From Methanobrevibacter sp. (GTDB taxonomy: Archaea; Methanobacteriota; Methanobacteria; Methanobacteriales; Methanobacteriaceae): DNA of 64,000 nt. Numbering within the stretch: position 1 is the stretch's first letter; every line of letters starts with the position of its first letter. The position numbers and the translations under genes were made by a program. This document shows positions 5,781-61,699 of this stretch, piece after piece. The stretch is taken from assembly GCA_022775905.1 (NCBI GenBank), contig JALFJX010000012.1, positions 1 through 64,000 of the forward strand. Direction: 5' to 3'. The notes beneath the pieces are model-generated. The model saw only the letters and a list, made by a program, of their open reading frames with translations. It did no database searches and was not told the origin of the DNA.

Positions 5781-6886
5781 ATGAAAAACAATGCACTATT
5801 GAAAACCTGTTCATTACATTCAACCATTCTGAAGGCACTCAAAGGGCATACGTTTATGCACTGGAAAAATATACAACATATTTTGAAATGGAACTTAATG
5901 AACTTCTAAAAGAAGCAGAAATCAAGGAATCTGAAGGAATCAAATGAAAACACAGGAAAATCAAATTCAGACTTCTGGAATTCAGACAGTACCTGCTTGA
6001 AAACTATACTCTAAACACTGTAAAATCAGTCATGATAAATGACATCAAATTCTACAAGTTCTATGATGTTGAAATCTATGAGTTACCCAAAATCAATGAA
6101 AAATCCATTCAAAAGCCGCAGCCGATTTATTTCACTAATCTGCCGGATAAAAAAATCATCAGGGATGCATTGGGTATTGCAAATCCAGTCATGAAGGCCA
6201 TAATACTGTTTATCTGCTCCAGCGGCTGTGGACGAGCAGAATATCTAAGTTTAACAATTCAGGACTACATCGATGCACTATCTGAATATTTGCCAAAAAA
6301 TGATTTGTCAATTTTTGAGGTGATTGATTTAATCGATGATGACAAGACAATCATTCCCACGTTCAACATTCGCCGAAAAAAGACCAACAAATACTATACA
6401 ATCCACTGCAGCCCCGAAGCCATTAAAGCAATAAACGCACATATATTGTCCCGCAGAGATACTGTCACTAACGAGTCCAAACTGTTTAAGATTGCCGTTA
6501 ATTATCTTACGGTCAATTTTCAAAAAATCCATGATGATTTGGGTCTTGGAAAAATCGGCCCATACAACAGATTCAGAAACCATATGCTGCGGAAATTCCA
6601 TGCAAGTGCATTATATAATGACGGCATGAGTCTGGATGATGTAAACGATTTGCATGGTAAAGCCAAAAACAAGACTGATCAAGCATACTTCATGATAAAC
6701 CCAGAGGATTTAAAATACCAGTATATTGAACATATGTCTGCAGTAACCATAAGCACAGAAGTCAAAAAACTGCACGTCAAATCACAGGAGTTTGTAAAAA
6801 TAGAAAACGAGAAAAACGAACTGATACTGGAACTGGATCGTCTTAGATTTGACATTGACAGTCTTAAAAGCATGATTGGGAAATAA
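5781..6886 (+). pseudogene. Tyrosine recombinase/integrase, inactivated
   Basis: The C-terminal 284 residues (open from ATG 6032) contain a complete tyrosine recombinase catalytic set. The residues are Arg68 in SGCGRAEYLS, a beta-hairpin Lys near 116, His184-x-x-Arg187 in NHMLRKFH, His208 in DLHGKA and nucleophile Tyr219 in QAYF. The N-terminal SAM-like core-binding part lies upstream in the same frame (LFITFNHSEGTQRAYVYALE) but is cut by an in-frame TGA at 5945-5947, at a place where Trp (TGG) would fit (GIK-stop-KHRK). A one-base loss near 5797 separates it from the ATG at 5781 (MKNNAL). A late coiled tail follows the Tyr. The gene is dead as read. If translation restarted at 6032, an isolated catalytic domain could be made, but DNA binding would be impaired. 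Confidence 0.85.
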
Positions 6887-16024: not shown

Positions 16025-16083
16025 TTGGAATAAATTTGGAATAAGTTTGGGATATCTTTGGAAGAGGGATTTAAGTATTAAAT
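16025..16083 (+). promoter_or_regulatory. Four TTGGRA boxes at exact 11-bp spacing running into a TATA-like box
   Basis: TTGG occurs at 16025, 16036, 16047 and 16058, each 11 bp apart. The units are TTGGAATAAAT, TTGGAATAAGT, TTGGGATATCT and TTGGAAGAGGG. The next unit position (16069) begins ATTTAAGTATTAAAT, a good TATA candidate. The same design occurs at 59134-59214. The 11-bp period puts all boxes on one face of the DNA, as expected for a protein that binds cooperatively in a row. On the plus strand it points to the broken small ORF at 16117. On the minus strand it lies upstream of the exoIII-type promoter copy. Confidence 0.7.
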
Positions 16084-16116
16084 CCAAGGATATTCTTATT
16101 CCTGGCAGTTCTAGTA

Positions 16117-16257
16117 ATCAAAGTTTTAAAAGAAATTATTGAAAATGTACCTGAAGATTATGAAGTTCACTTCACTAATGGAAAGAATGTTTTTACAGTT
16201 AATGATAAATTTGAAATTGATGTAAGTCAAAAGAAAATCACATTCCAAAAATATTAA
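16117..16257 (+). pseudogene. Small ORF, about 46 aa, with the start codon ATG changed to ATC
   Basis: The frame reads KVLKEIIENVPEDYEVHFTN followed by GKNVFTVNDKFEIDVSQKK and ITFQKY, ending at TAA 16255-16257. There is no ATG, GTG or TTG at the expected place; the codon before KVLKE is ATC (16117-16119). The spacing from the TATA-like box at 16069 (about 45 bp) would suit a leaderless or short-leader gene. The composition is that of a real small acidic protein. I do not recognise it. It could be dead through loss of the start codon, or use a non-standard start. Confidence 0.45.
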
Positions 16258-36555: not shown

Positions 36556-37512
36556 CTATTCTTTTAATCCGCCGGTTGCTTCATCGTAACCAATTAATTC
36601 ATCAAAAGCGGTAATTTTACATAATTTTTGTACTTCAGCTAATGCTTCAGGATAAGCATGAGTTGTAGGTGGCACTTCAGGAAGACCAATTTTTGATCTT
36701 AAAGCTTTAACATTGTCATTAATAGGTACTGCATGACCAGTATTTAATACGAACACACCAGTCATTTTGTGAGCTTTAGCCATGTATCCAGCGTGAGCTG
36801 CGATGTTACGTGCTTTTTTGATGATTTCTACGATTTTAACACTTCTTAAACATCTTTCTTGGCAAGTGTAACAGGTAGTACACATCCATAAAGATTCATC
36901 AGAAATAACTTCTTCTTTTAATCCTAATAAACATTTTCTGACAATTTGTCTTACTTTATAAGGAGTTCTTCTTCCAGATGGGCATCCTCCACTACAGGTA
37001 CCACATTGGAAACAGTGTTTTACAGTTTCAATTCCAGCATCAATGAACTCAGCGGTGAAATCTGGATCACGATTACTATCATTTAATAATTCTTTATCAG
37101 TTAATAAAGTCATAGTATCTCTCTTTTTATCTTTATCATTTGAATTTTCTTCAACTTCCTCAACAACATCTTCTGTTGTTTCTTCTTCATCTTCAACAAC
37201 TTCAACTTCTTCAACAACTTCTGGTTCTTCTGGAGTTGCTTCTTCAACAACTTCAACTTCCTCAGGAGCCACTTCTTCAATAGTTTCAGCTTCTTCCACA
37301 ATTTCTTCAGATGAATCTTCTACAATTTCGATGTCTTTTTTGAAAGTTAAATCTTTTTCACTATCTTCCACTTCAGGAACGATAGTTTCTTCCATTTGTG
37401 AAGATGTAACTTCGACATCATTAGATGTGTTTGATACATCATTATTGATGTCTGTTTCTTCTTTATCTATATCTCCTTTGAACAAGGATTTAAGACGATT
37501 TATTATAGACAT
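36556..37512 (-). CDS. hdrC: CoB-CoM heterodisulfide reductase subunit C with acidic N-terminal extension
   Basis: The C-terminal 185 residues are normal HdrC, with CFQCGTCSGGCP and CTTCYTCQERC binding two [4Fe-4S] clusters. Before them is an unusual extension of about 130 residues. It starts SIINRLKSLFKG (a possible amphipathic helix), then becomes a low-complexity acidic region (repeats of EVVEE and PEEVEVVEE). GAGGTG lies 8 nt before ATG 37512, supporting use of the long form. Met131 or so (MTLLTDKELL, near 37110) with GAGAGAT upstream could be an internal start for canonical HdrC. Frame and codon use are continuous. The extension may anchor or tether the complex. Confidence 0.9.
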   Translation of the reverse strand: MSIINRLKSLFKGDIDKEETDINNDVSNTSNDVEVTSSQMEETIVPEVEDSEKDLTFKKDIEIVEDSSEEIVEEAETIEEVAPEEVEVVEEATPEEPEVVEEVEVVEDEEETTEDVVEEVEENSNDKDKKRDTMTLLTDKELLNDSNRDPDFTAEFIDAGIETVKHCFQCGTCSGGCPSGRRTPYKVRQIVRKCLLGLKEEVISDESLWMCTTCYTCQERCLRSVKIVEIIKKARNIAAHAGYMAKAHKMTGVFVLNTGHAVPINDNVKALRSKIGLPEVPPTTHAYPEALAEVQKLCKITAFDELIGYDEATGGLKE

Positions 37513-57410: not shown

Positions 57411-58529
57411 TTAATTAATATAACTAATTTTGTATTTACAATTAATATTATTTATTATTTCAATTATTTTATCCCTGACTTCATCAATGCTTGAAAAGTT
57501 CAATGATTCCTTTTTACCGTCAAACATTATGGTTTTAATATCTCGACCAACGACATCATCAAAACCACTTTCAACTTCAAAAATGATGGAATCTTTAACT
57601 TTAAATCCATCTTCTACAACTTTATCTAAATCCCCATCAGTTATTCCAATTATAGGTATATCAAACCGATACAAAATATCCGAAGATATCAAAGTTGTAT
57701 CATCACCAACAGTGATTACAACAGATGAATCCCTAAATTTGTATACATCCTCACCTGCATGGTCCAAAAAGGTAATTTTAAAATCATTAGGTTTATCATG
57801 TGAAATAACTCTTGGTGTAACTTTTGCATGTCTTAAAAGACCAGTTTTAATGATTGCAGATTCCAAATCAACTTCACCCAACTTTTCAAGACCATGAGGT
57901 TTTAGCTCACCACCAACAATATCAACAATATGATTATCTCGAGCGATTAACGTCAGTTTATCTGAATCTGTTTTACCAATGACAACACTGTTGACCATGA
58001 TGTTTTCACCAGGACTTACCCCATGCACAATTCTTTGATTAAAATCAGCATCATCCTGCCTAATATGATTTTCATAAACTTCATCAGGAGATACAATGGA
58101 AAGATTTAACTTTTGAGATAACTCCTCTACAATATCCAAATTAATATTCCATGGAATTATACTCCCATTTTCCTCGCCCGGCCTTTCAATTTGAATTACG
58201 GGAATATTGTTTTCAGCTATTTTATCAACAAAATGATTATAAACCTTATATCCAAAAACTTGACCAGTAACATCAGACTTTCCATAATTAAGTAAAAAAA
58301 TCAAATCAACATCATCATCATCATAAAATATTTTTAGAGAGTCACTTGGAACCAATTTACGTGATATATCAATTATGCCCTCTAAACAGGCATCAATAAC
58401 TGCAGTACGACCCATTGTACCGCCAAGCCTTACTGAAACATCTCCATAATTTTTAAGTAACTCTATGAGTTTTAAAGCATAACCGGAATCAATAATATTT
58501 GGACCATGAACAACAATACCTATTTTCAT
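57411..58529 (-). CDS. DUF2117-like protein
   Basis: A 372-residue soluble protein. It has an N-terminal Rossmann-like domain (KIGIVVHGPNIIDSGYALKL, RLGGTMGRTAVIDACLEG), a middle with YDDDDVDLIFLLNYGKSDVT and IPVIQIERPGEENG, and a C-terminal VVITVGDDTTLISSDILY. It resembles the archaeal DUF2117 family as I remember it. It overlaps nob1 by 4 bp and precedes mmp2. The linkage with Mmp2 may hint at a methanogen-specific role, but none is known. Confidence 0.78.
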   Translation of the reverse strand: MKIGIVVHGPNIIDSGYALKLIELLKNYGDVSVRLGGTMGRTAVIDACLEGIIDISRKLVPSDSLKIFYDDDDVDLIFLLNYGKSDVTGQVFGYKVYNHFVDKIAENNIPVIQIERPGEENGSIIPWNINLDIVEELSQKLNLSIVSPDEVYENHIRQDDADFNQRIVHGVSPGENIMVNSVVIGKTDSDKLTLIARDNHIVDIVGGELKPHGLEKLGEVDLESAIIKTGLLRHAKVTPRVISHDKPNDFKITFLDHAGEDVYKFRDSSVVITVGDDTTLISSDILYRFDIPIIGITDGDLDKVVEDGFKVKDSIIFEVESGFDDVVGRDIKTIMFDGKKESLNFSSIDEVRDKIIEIINNINCKYKISYIN

Positions 58530-59032
58530 TTGTTCACCTTAATCCTTTTTTTATATATTTTTGATCCACAGATTTCACAATCATCAAATGGATAATCATC
58601 ACCATATTCCTTTTTACAACCTTCACAGACTTTCTTCCAGTTGTAAACACCTTTAATTCCCTGAGTTATTATTCCAGAATAAGGAATTTCCATTATTTTT
58701 AGAGTATTTTGAATAGTATAATCATCACTGATAACTTTTACATTGCGACCTTCTTTTGAGAACATATATGCAAGTGAAATTAATTTTTTATCAGGTAATG
58801 ATAACCTTAAAATATCACCTGATTCAGATATAATTTTATTAACACAATTTGTATACTCATCTGGCACATCTTGTATAGTTAATTTACACTCATCAATAGC
58901 CATGTCAAATGTTAGTCTAGATTCAAAATCCTTAATTTCAGCAGTGATTTCTGGAACTGTGAAATTGTTATTAGAAGTTAATTTGAATCCATTAATAAAA
59001 GCAGATGCATCTAATATATAACAAATTTCCAT
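58526..59032 (-). CDS. nob1: Nob1 family rRNA endonuclease
   Basis: A 168-residue PIN domain plus zinc ribbon. YILDASAFINGF (Asp8), TVPEITAEIKDFES (Glu) and LPDKKLISLAY (Asp) supply PIN acidic residues. VISDDYTIQNTLKIM is also present. The C-terminus has CEGCKKEYGDDYPFDDCEICG (about 136-156). It cleaves the 3' end of pre-16S rRNA at site D. It overlaps the DUF2117 gene. There is no strong ribosome site. Confidence 0.9.
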   Translation of the reverse strand: MEICYILDASAFINGFKLTSNNNFTVPEITAEIKDFESRLTFDMAIDECKLTIQDVPDEYTNCVNKIISESGDILRLSLPDKKLISLAYMFSKEGRNVKVISDDYTIQNTLKIMEIPYSGIITQGIKGVYNWKKVCEGCKKEYGDDYPFDDCEICGSKIYKKRIKVNK

Positions 59033-59133: not shown

Positions 59134-59214
59134 TTGGAATAACAATGGGAAGGCATTGGAAGAGTTTTGGAATGAATTTGGGAAAGAATTGGAAAAATCT
59201 ATTTAAATTTAAAT
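59134..59214 (+). promoter_or_regulatory. Six TTGGRA boxes at exact 11-bp spacing with TATA box, upstream of FilR1-type regulators
   Basis: Boxes at 59134, 59145 (ATGGGA), 59156, 59167, 59178 (TTGGGA) and 59189 fall exactly 11 bp apart. ATTTAAATTTAAAT at 59201-59214 follows one turn later. The same layout is at 16025-16083 (four boxes). Boxes, then TATA, then the ATG 37 bp later, makes this a promoter with a row of activator or repressor sites on one DNA face. The regulators just downstream could bind it. Confidence 0.75.
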
Positions 59215-59250: not shown

Positions 59251-60048
59251 ATGAAAATGGATATCCATAATGAAATCAATAAAGATATCAAATTTCTTGC
59301 AAAATCAGAAATACGATTGAAAATATTAAGTGAACTACACAATAGTCCATATAGCGTACATGAACTTGTTAAAAAGACTAAAATAACTTATAGTTCCGTA
59401 TCAAGCAATATTACCAAATTAGAGCAGAATAACTACATCAAAAAAATAAAATCAAAATATTATCTAAACCCCATGACTAAAATATATTTTCACACATTGC
59501 TAGACTTCAAGCAAAGTGTTGAAGTAATTAACAAATACAGCGAATTTTGGGACAAACATAACCTAAAACAAATAAATATCGAATCAATGAAAAATATCAC
59601 AAACCTAAAAGACTCCGAATTAATTGAAACAACACCACTTGATATTTATAAAACTCATAACACCATCAAAAGTCAAATATTAGACTCAAAATCTCTTAAA
59701 GCAATTTTTCCATATTTACATCCAGAATATCCTCAACTAATTGAAAAAATCCTAAATGATAATGGAAAAGTTGAATTGATAATACCAAAAGCCATTTACA
59801 ATGCAATAACATCAAAAATCAATGTTAAAGTAAAACAAAAAGCATTATCCGAGAAAAGATTAATAATTTATCCAGTTGAAGATGATTTGAACATATATCT
59901 AACAATATGTGACGAATCAATGAGTTTAGGATTATTCAAGACAGACAAAAGTTTTGATCAAAATAGGATATTGATTTCAGACAGAGACAAATCAAAAAAA
60001 TGGGTGGAAAATTTATTTGAAAATATCAAATATGACGTGATAAAATGA
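59251..60048 (+). CDS. FilR1/DUF1724-type HTH transcriptional regulator, first paralog
   Basis: A 265-residue protein. Winged helix at about 15-75 (SEIRLKILSELHNSPYSVHE, KITYSSVSSNITKLEQNNYI). The C-terminal domain (about 110-262) has IIPKAIYNAI, RLIIYPVEDDLNIYLTICDE, SMSLGLF and LISDRDKSKKWVENLFENIK, which match the regulatory domain of the methanogen FilR1 (DUF1724) family. TTGGAGGAAT precedes ATG 59251. A second ATG lies at 59257. It overlaps the second paralog by 4 bp (ATGA). The signal bound is unknown. The phased array ahead of it is a likely self-control site. Confidence 0.83.
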   Translation: MKMDIHNEINKDIKFLAKSEIRLKILSELHNSPYSVHELVKKTKITYSSVSSNITKLEQNNYIKKIKSKYYLNPMTKIYFHTLLDFKQSVEVINKYSEFWDKHNLKQINIESMKNITNLKDSELIETTPLDIYKTHNTIKSQILDSKSLKAIFPYLHPEYPQLIEKILNDNGKVELIIPKAIYNAITSKINVKVKQKALSEKRLIIYPVEDDLNIYLTICDESMSLGLFKTDKSFDQNRILISDRDKSKKWVENLFENIKYDVIK

Positions 60049-60842
60049 CCAATATTCAAACCAAGAAAGAATTAAATGACGAATATCAAAACGTTAAATA
60101 TATTTTAACCTCAAGCATGCGCACAAAATTACTTTTAGTGCTTTATGAACATTCCAAAAAATTAGAAGACATAAGGAAAGATTTAAAGAAGCCCTCCGCA
60201 ACAATATTGCATGGACTTAAAGAGTTAGAAAATAAAAATTTGATTCATAAAATTCAGAAATATTATGAATTAACTTCAAATGGATACATCCTCACAACAA
60301 ATATGATAAAATTAATTGAAAATTGGTATTCAATAAACAAAAGCAAACAGTTCTGGAACAGCCATGACTTATCAGATATTCCTGAAGAAATACTAAAAGA
60401 TATTTATTTATTAAAAGATGTTGAATACGAAACTTCGACTACAAGCGATTTATCAAATGCATTCAATAAATATATCCAATTACTCTTAAATTCAACAGAA
60501 TTGAAAATAATTCTCCCAATATACTCTGAAAACCATTTTAAATATATTATTGATTTTTTAAATGAAAATAAACCATCAAAACTAGAATTGATAGTTAATG
60601 AAAAAATTCTAAATTCAATAAAACAAAATCAAAATCTAGAGAAATCATTACTAGAAAATGAAAACGTGACAGTTAAATGCATTGAACAAGATTTAAAGCT
60701 ATTTTTAACATGTTCAGACAACTTCATGTCATTGACATTGTTTTTAAAAGATGGGCATTATGATGATTCCCAAATATTGATTGGAAAAGATAAAAATGCT
60801 CTAAAATGGGCTTTAAATTTAATTCAATGTTTTACAAACTAA
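60045..60842 (+). CDS. FilR1/DUF1724-type HTH transcriptional regulator, second paralog
   Basis: A 265-residue paralog of the previous gene with equal length and layout. HTH at about 20-75 (SSMRTKLLLVLYEHSKKLED, KKPSATILHGLKELENKN) and FilR1-like domain with YSENHFKYIIDFLNE, CIEQDLKLFLTCSDNFMSLT and LIGKDKNALKWALNLIQ. It is coupled to the first through ATGA. Two such paralogs in a row may form a heterodimer. No separate ribosome site is needed. Confidence 0.82.
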   Translation: MTNIQTKKELNDEYQNVKYILTSSMRTKLLLVLYEHSKKLEDIRKDLKKPSATILHGLKELENKNLIHKIQKYYELTSNGYILTTNMIKLIENWYSINKSKQFWNSHDLSDIPEEILKDIYLLKDVEYETSTTSDLSNAFNKYIQLLLNSTELKIILPIYSENHFKYIIDFLNENKPSKLELIVNEKILNSIKQNQNLEKSLLENENVTVKCIEQDLKLFLTCSDNFMSLTLFLKDGHYDDSQILIGKDKNALKWALNLIQCFTN

Positions 60843-60856
60843 AAAAAGAGGTGATT

Positions 60857-61180
60857 ATGTTCAATGAGATAACAATAACCAAAATGAGCAAAATTAAAGA
60901 TAAAGAACTTTCTAATTTATTAATTGGTAGAAAAGGAGGAATAACAACTATTAAAATAACAGATCAAATACTACAGCAACCTCATAATGCAAATCAATTA
61001 TCTAGAATATTACACTTAGATTATAAAACAATAACATATCACTTAAACCTCATGATCGACCATGAATATGTGGAAAAAGAAAAGATTACACAGAATTACA
61101 TTTATTATCCAAGTAAAAAATTATATAATTGCATAGAAGAATATAGTCTAATAAGGAATTTTCTTAAAATTGAATATTAA
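60857..61180 (+). CDS. ArsR-like winged-helix regulator, 107 aa
   Basis: GAGGTGATT lies directly before ATG 60857, so this start is preferred to a longer frame. The winged helix (about 25-90) has ITDQILQQPHNANQLSRILH, LDYKTITYHLNLMIDHEYVE, followed by a YYPSKKLY wing. It lacks the FilR1 domain and has no metal-binding cysteines. It lies 14 bp after the second FilR1 paralog. A three-gene regulator unit is thus likely, ending just before moaB, which follows 12 bp later and may be cotranscribed. Confidence 0.78.
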   Translation: MFNEITITKMSKIKDKELSNLLIGRKGGITTIKITDQILQQPHNANQLSRILHLDYKTITYHLNLMIDHEYVEKEKITQNYIYYPSKKLYNCIEEYSLIRNFLKIEY

Positions 61181-61192
61181 TAGGTATAAAAA

Positions 61193-61699
61193 ATGAAAAG
61201 TAAAACAGCAAGCGAACATCAAAAAATGTCCTCAAAAGACATTACTTGTGGTGTAATCACATTAAGTGACAGTAGAAAATCAAAAAAAGCTGATTTATCT
61301 GGCCAGTATATGGCAGAAGAAATTGAATCCAGATACAGTTTAAAATCTAGAAGCTTGATTCCAGATGAAAAAGAAGATTTGATTGATGCTATTGAAACCA
61401 TGATTGATGACAATATTGATGTTATCTTAACAACTGGAGGAACAGGTCTTGATCCTCGTGACATAACAGTTGAAACAGTAGAATCACTCTTTGAGAAAAA
61501 ACTCGATGGATTTGGAGAAATGTTTAGAGCAAAATCTTATGATGAAATTGGTGCTGCAGCATTACTTTCAAGAGCAACAGCAGGAATATACAAAAAAACA
61601 GTTATATTTTCTATGCCGGGTTCTCCAAATGCAGTTAAAACTGCATTTAGCATAATAATTGATGAACTTCCTCATTTTGTCCATCATGTTAAAAAATGA
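61193..61699 (+). CDS. moaB: MoaB/MogA family molybdopterin-type protein
   Basis: A 168-residue protein. The nucleotide-binding motif TTGGTGLDPRDITVE (about 80-94), GVITLSDSRKSK at the start and SMPGSPNAVKTAF near the end are MoaB/MogA signatures. It adenylylates molybdopterin, needed for the tungsten/molybdenum enzymes of methanogenesis such as formylmethanofuran dehydrogenase. AATAGGTATAAAA precedes the ATG. A strong hairpin overlaps its stop. Confidence 0.88.
   Translation: MKSKTASEHQKMSSKDITCGVITLSDSRKSKKADLSGQYMAEEIESRYSLKSRSLIPDEKEDLIDAIETMIDDNIDVILTTGGTGLDPRDITVETVESLFEKKLDGFGEMFRAKSYDEIGAAALLSRATAGIYKKTVIFSMPGSPNAVKTAFSIIIDELPHFVHHVKK

Follow-up and report, generated by a model that had tools for sequence, protein, structure and literature searches.

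In Methanobrevibacter, the four-gene operon A-B-C-moaB is preceded by an array of short boxes repeated at 11-bp steps up to its promoter. Comparison between genomes establishes that the array exists, that it keeps a fixed register, that it is conserved across the genus, that it has changed together with the operon proteins, and that few other sites of its kind occur. We propose that the array is the autoregulatory operator of A-B-C-moaB and is probably bound cooperatively by a winged-helix protein that the operon itself encodes (rough probability, 0.6).

A Six-Box Array Lies Directly Upstream of the Operon Promoter

In the window (the whole stretch of 64,000 nucleotides analyzed), the array takes up the intergenic space that separates the operon from a divergent nob1-like gene. 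The features are as follows.

58526..59032, minus strand: PIN-domain (nob1-like) gene, divergent, bordering the intergenic region that holds the array (open reading frame and domain match)
59134..59199, plus strand: six-box 11-bp array (window sequence and orthologous arrays)
59200..59207, plus strand: TATA box TATTTAAA of the regulator operon (distance from the last box constant in nearly all species)
59251..60048, plus strand: gene A, winged-helix regulator with FilR1_middle domain (PF08350, 77.7 bits; Pfam)
60045..60842, plus strand: gene B, second FilR1_middle winged-helix protein (PF08350, 70.6 bits; Pfam)
60857..61180, plus strand: gene C, 107-aa winged helix (HTH_5, ArsR-like), candidate array binder (domain match and structure model)
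61193..61699, plus strand: moaB/mogA-type molybdopterin-biosynthesis gene (PF00994), last in the conserved operon (Pfam)

The boxes start at 59134 (TTGGAA), 59145 (ATGGGA), 59156 (TTGGAA), 59167 (TTGGAA), 59178 (TTGGGA), and 59189 (TTGGAA), and the corresponding 11-bp units read, in order, TTGGAATAACA, ATGGGAAGGCA, TTGGAAGAGTT, TTGGAATGAAT, TTGGGAAAGAA, and TTGGAAAAATC. The step between neighbors is exactly 11 bp throughout, and the last box overlaps the BRE, directly abutting the TATA box. The longest in-phase chains of [TA]TGG[AG]A in the window are six boxes at 59134 and four at 16025; all remaining plus-strand boxes are single at spacing 11, and at control spacings of 7–10 and 12–15 no in-phase chain in the window exceeds two. 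When the window was simulated 40 times with a Markov model, the maximum chain was one in 38 simulations and two in the other 2. The window sequence and these simulations bear out an earlier note on this DNA, which had described six TTGG or ATGG boxes followed by RA at exact 11-bp spacing and then a TATA element. Genome-wide searches used patterns and a profile. The pattern search for three or more consecutive TTGGRA boxes at about 11 bp returned only the 59134 and 16025 arrays, and the reversed pattern, run over the whole genome as a control, gave 0 matches. A low-complexity repeat of period 9 is also present in the window, at 37181–37235.

Both A and B score far above the Pfam gathering threshold for FilR1_middle (27 bits). 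They overlap through ATGA at 60045–60048, so that the coupling of A to its paralog had been described correctly; the unit downstream of the array, taken before to be a FilR1-type pair, does contain that pair, but C and the moaB/mogA gene had been overlooked. The order A-B-C-moaB recurs in the loci read, with the exception of G008, which lacks C. A domain search found no receiver (REC) domain in A or B, no kinase lies among the genes adjoining the operon, and there is no ParA- or TubZ-like NTPase in the operon loci read. The predicted structure of C is an ArsR/MarR-like winged helix (pLDDT 90.7), and a fold search with this model ranks ordinary ArsR/MarR regulators first. The archaeal partition protein AspA is among the weaker matches (profile E 0.003–0.006; fold TMt 0.71), and TubR is not among the PDB sequence matches listed for C. 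At one locus (L150, 4268–5359) B and C are fused in a single open frame of 363 aa, suggesting that the two proteins work together.

The Array Is Conserved in Register across Methanobrevibacter

An orthologue of A is present in 63 of 67 Methanobrevibacter genomes, most of the compared genomes being fragmented metagenome assemblies. The earlier note had recommended comparing array length and box sequence in orthologous regions; in this comparison, boxes at 11 bp in a fixed register to the TATA box were found in 60 of 61 readable promoters, the sole exception being G008. Individually, 55 of the 61 promoters reach p < 0.01 against shuffles, four more (G015, G022, G080, and G088) have p = 0.01–0.02, and those of G008 and of G062, the latter with about two boxes, fall short of significance, single p-values being slightly optimistic because, of the TATA candidates, the one with the highest lag-11 score was taken. 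This choice affects neither the constancy of the distance nor the agreement between species. Averaged over 42 promoters, self-identity within the 77 bp upstream of the TATA box is 0.60 at lag 11, 0.595 at lag 22, and 0.58 at lag 33, compared with a background of 0.23–0.26 at unrelated lags. A site of this kind is thus conserved in front of the regulators' own operon, as an autoregulatory operator should be.

Within the stretch read, the regulator promoters have between about 2 and 17 boxes, and in G013 the array reaches the ends of two contigs, which carry 11 and about 25 boxes, respectively. Free variation of the boxes between close strains had been named as grounds for abandoning the proposal. 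Number and sequence do differ by species, but register, spacing, and similarity within an array are kept. Higher-order repeats inside the G013 and G090 arrays show that arrays, to judge from their sequences, grow by tandem duplication. G090 contains an isolated run of 43 consecutive TTGG-type boxes, spaced exactly 11 bp apart and with higher-order repeats as well (L402, G090:C24:213500-218500, positions ~2374–2846 counted on the reverse strand); it adjoins a nucleotidyltransferase-like gene and has no recognizable promoter behind it.

A neutral minisatellite or a chance tandem repeat could account for such growth, but not for a register to the TATA box fixed in about 60 species, a spacing that stays at 11, or the same arrays at unrelated loci; the cross-species register refutes this origin, to which we give almost no weight.

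Box Letters Change by Clade and Together with Operon Proteins

The commonest box class across the genus is TTGGRA. TTGAA and ACCGAA boxes are found in G005 and G025, TTCA boxes in a clade of 11 species (support 100/100), and boxes TTGGAGGAA in G001, G034, and their relatives. Box identity is 0.65 within one array versus 0.48 between genomes. The likeness of boxes within an array and the clade-wise change of letters are what one would expect of an operator that changes in concert with its reader. Among all boxes, it is the last one that contains the most informative G column. Most likely, the boxes have changed in step with the operon proteins, and the array is the operon's own control site.

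The strict 11-bp period also fits an array that bends DNA or positions archaeal histones, without a dedicated sequence-specific protein, since G/C and A/T steps recurring at this interval can have such effects. We consider this improbable: the boxes always have the same orientation to the promoter, their exact letters matter and switch by clade, and a genome has a single array or a few, almost always at one of two gene classes.

C Is the Favored Candidate for the Array Binder

We compared box-profile distance with protein distance by partial Mantel tests in which the C-terminal domains of A and B served as control, and in which kinship among species is controlled only roughly. For the recognition helices, the partial r in 38 genomes was 0.35 for C (p 0.001), −0.004 for A, and −0.055 for B; in 58 genomes it was 0.263 for C (p 0.001), 0.035 for A, and −0.015 for B. 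In the larger set, box distance is likewise correlated with distance in the wing of A (0.285) and in the complete DNA-binding domain of B (0.323), and for the A and B DNA-binding domains the covariation is significant even after C is taken out. Because these non-helix parts covary as well, covariation alone does not single out C, and with 58 genomes we have downgraded C from likely to favored. A one-residue code, in which DYKT in C reads GG, seemed attractive in the first 38 genomes; it fails for G063 and G073, which have TTGG boxes, yet a C helix (NYST) that differs from that of other TTGG genomes.

Gene content provides a second line of evidence. In G008, A and B are kept, C is absent from anywhere in the genome, and so is the array; this joint loss is seen in that one genome only. 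Other members of the order have an A-B pair with neither a linked C nor an array. For these reasons C (60857–61180) is our leading predicted binder, at about even odds, followed by A and/or B, or a mixed complex, as a somewhat less probable predicted reader.

That the FilR1-type pair A/B by itself, as homo- or heterodimers, binds the array while C has another role seems to us doubtful, although several observations favor it. Of the operon genes, A comes first downstream of the array; the A and B DNA-binding domains covary in part with the boxes, as described above; and in Methanosaeta (Methanothrix) harundinacea, FilR1 activates the promoter of its own gene, to which it binds (PMC3991700). Against this stand the recognition helices of A and B, which hardly vary or show no correlation with the boxes even as these switch class, and the A-B pairs that occur without an array. 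The evidence on A/B as binder is therefore divided, and the more specific proposal of the earlier note, an A/B heterodimer polymerizing along the array, is not supported over C, whose recognition helix covaries with the boxes.

Other Arrays Precede a Small Set of Accessory Genes

Within the window, a second and shorter array has the following features.

16025..16068, plus strand: second array, four 11-bp boxes at 16025, 16036, 16047, and 16058 (pattern and profile)
16069..16075, plus strand: TATA-like element ATTTAAG of the second array (window sequence)
16102..16257, plus strand: gene for a 51-aa protein, apparent CTG start about 33 bp from the TATA-like element (homologue alignment)

The frame begins with CTG where homologues have ATG, reflecting either a non-standard start or early decay. 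From the position of the CTG about 33 bp from the TATA, the gene would be leaderless. With a looser profile, a third, weaker array was found on contig C10, accompanied by another copy of the ~50-aa gene. Noise aside, strong profile matches fall essentially only at the A promoter and at ~50-aa genes. Orthologous arrays and the profile search thus lend good support, at the level of sequence, to the proposal of autoregulation with the 16025 array as part of the same regulon; the earlier note was right about this second member but had noticed neither the ~50-aa gene behind it nor the array on C10.

Array-bearing copies of the ~50-aa gene are present in G000 (two), G002, G006 (two), G024, G026 (two), G027, G070, G078, G087, and G090, and all of these genomes also have C. 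Searches of the small protein against Pfam and PHROGs gave nothing convincing. The copies often adjoin mobile or defense genes. Several are frameshifted, and the frameshifts are real in the two records whose sequences, read across the frameshift, were included in the small-protein alignment for search only; this suggests repeated loss of the gene. One frameshifted copy (L061, G006:C12, ~6000–6155) lies right behind a phage terminase large-subunit gene, and another (L063, G027:C86, ~6025–6180) is found in G027, where the small gene is beside a probable toxin-antitoxin pair (judged by eye). In G026 (L173, G026:C11, 1061–3358), a GmrSD-type restriction gene lies between two array-bearing small genes, and the next gene resembles one in the array-bearing locus of G024, as if cargo had been inserted between the two copies.

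In three species of the TTCA clade, arrays stand in front of genes of another family, with products of 257–337 aa and no Pfam match (G022, G013, and G069; L347 4448–5287, L349 4458–5468, and L355 521–1291), several homologues of which, in other species, are without arrays. In G082, an array precedes a DUF6932 gene. The rest of the regulon, as predicted from these sites, is small: the ~50-aa genes plus, in other species, two further accessory families. The operon is thus the stable target, the others being accessory genes that vary between lineages.

We also considered a viral origin of the arrays, and rejected it: the small protein has no relative in the viral contig collection or in phage records, and a search of viral contigs for the promoter-anchored array pattern found none. 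Forty viral contigs (L229–L268) do contain three or more TTTGGRA at 11 bp, some behind terminator-like hairpins, but none has an archaeal TATA in register. These look like unrelated sites, perhaps recombinase arm sites, and indicate that an 11-bp repeat of such a kind can arise elsewhere.

Comparison with Known Direct-Repeat Operators

Among the closest counterparts are the CarH/CarA operators of Thermus, Bacillus, and Myxococcales, which are tandem 11-bp direct repeats (PMC9304148). As in our array, the repeats are exact in spacing, lie at or over promoter elements, and are partly degenerate, and CarH binds them side by side on one face (PMC9304148). However, CarH is B12-dependent and its operators have 3–5 repeats of nnnnTnnACAn, whereas the arrays described here have between about 2 and more than 17 copies, and one orphan array has 43. 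CarH carries a MerR-type domain, in contrast to the FilR1-/ArsR-type archaeal winged helices and TTGGRA, TTGAA, or TTCA boxes of the present system. Exact 11-bp tandem direct repeats at a promoter are hence common to both, while neither the CarH consensus nor a B12-dependent CarH-family regulator was found here.

Like our operon, the type III plasmid partition system TubR/tubC combines a small winged-helix protein with a direct-repeat array upstream of its own operon, where TubR forms a filament on DNA and represses that operon (PMC5016525). The archaeal AspA of Sulfolobus pNOB8, a winged-helix dimer that coats DNA, nucleates in front of its gene, from where it extends over 200 bp (PMC5120986). 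Together with the weak match of C to AspA and the isolated 43-box array in G090, these precedents would fit a centromere-like segregation site with autoregulation as a by-product. We regard such a role as very unlikely. In the loci read, the operon encodes no partner NTPase (TubZ or ParA), the system is chromosomal, arrays recur before unrelated accessory genes, and the best structural matches of C are ordinary ArsR/MarR regulators; AspA, moreover, differs in nucleating at a 23-bp palindrome, spreading without specific boxes, and belonging to a ParBA cassette.

FilR1 has its FilR1_middle domain in common with A and B, but is a two-component response regulator; no receiver domain was found in A or B, and no partner histidine kinase among the genes adjoining the operon. 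The available part of the M. harundinacea FilR1 paper makes no mention of a phased array (PMC3991700). The present system would work in a similar way to these known ones, but since a defining feature of each was missing, we do not file the array as a member of any of them. We regard it, from its sequence, as a novel archaeal type of phased direct-repeat operator, to be compared with CarH and TubR/tubC. We found nothing in the literature on such arrays in Methanobrevibacter.

Discussion

We infer that an operon protein binds the array and that it does so cooperatively, and the sign of regulation is likewise an inference. In the mechanism that we favor, the winged-helix protein encoded by the operon would take one 11-bp box per DNA turn, as a subunit or a dimer, so that bound proteins would sit side by side on one DNA face. 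The resulting cooperative nucleoprotein row would stop at the last box, the one that overlaps the BRE immediately before the TATA box. Repression, by keeping TFB off the BRE, is slightly the better bet, and is suggested by this overlap and by the ArsR-like nature of C; activation would come close behind, being suggested by the position of the array upstream of the TATA box and by the auto-activation reported for FilR1 (PMC3991700). The 16025 array would place the 51-aa gene under the same control as the operon.

A more far-reaching and rather unlikely extension is that C, a protein of the host, forms filaments of tunable length on portable arrays, placing mobile or defense cargo under a molybdopterin-linked chromosomal switch, with orphan arrays of at least 40 boxes acting as titration sponges. 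Prophage-borne small genes, the uncharacterized family, and other accessory genes would then have acquired arrays in different species.

Methanobrevibacter are the main methane producers of gut and rumen, and sites are known for few of their transcription regulators. For the autoregulatory operator proposed here, sequences from more than 60 species show where the site lies, how it is phased, what adjoins it, and which few targets it has. The species form a natural series in the number and the letters of their boxes, which makes cooperativity and recognition by archaeal winged-helix proteins directly testable. The few other targets, many of them beside prophage or defense genes, provide a concrete hypothesis, namely host control of accessory genes. 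As a gene switch, the array would lend itself readily to tests, in a group of archaea for which few regulators are known.
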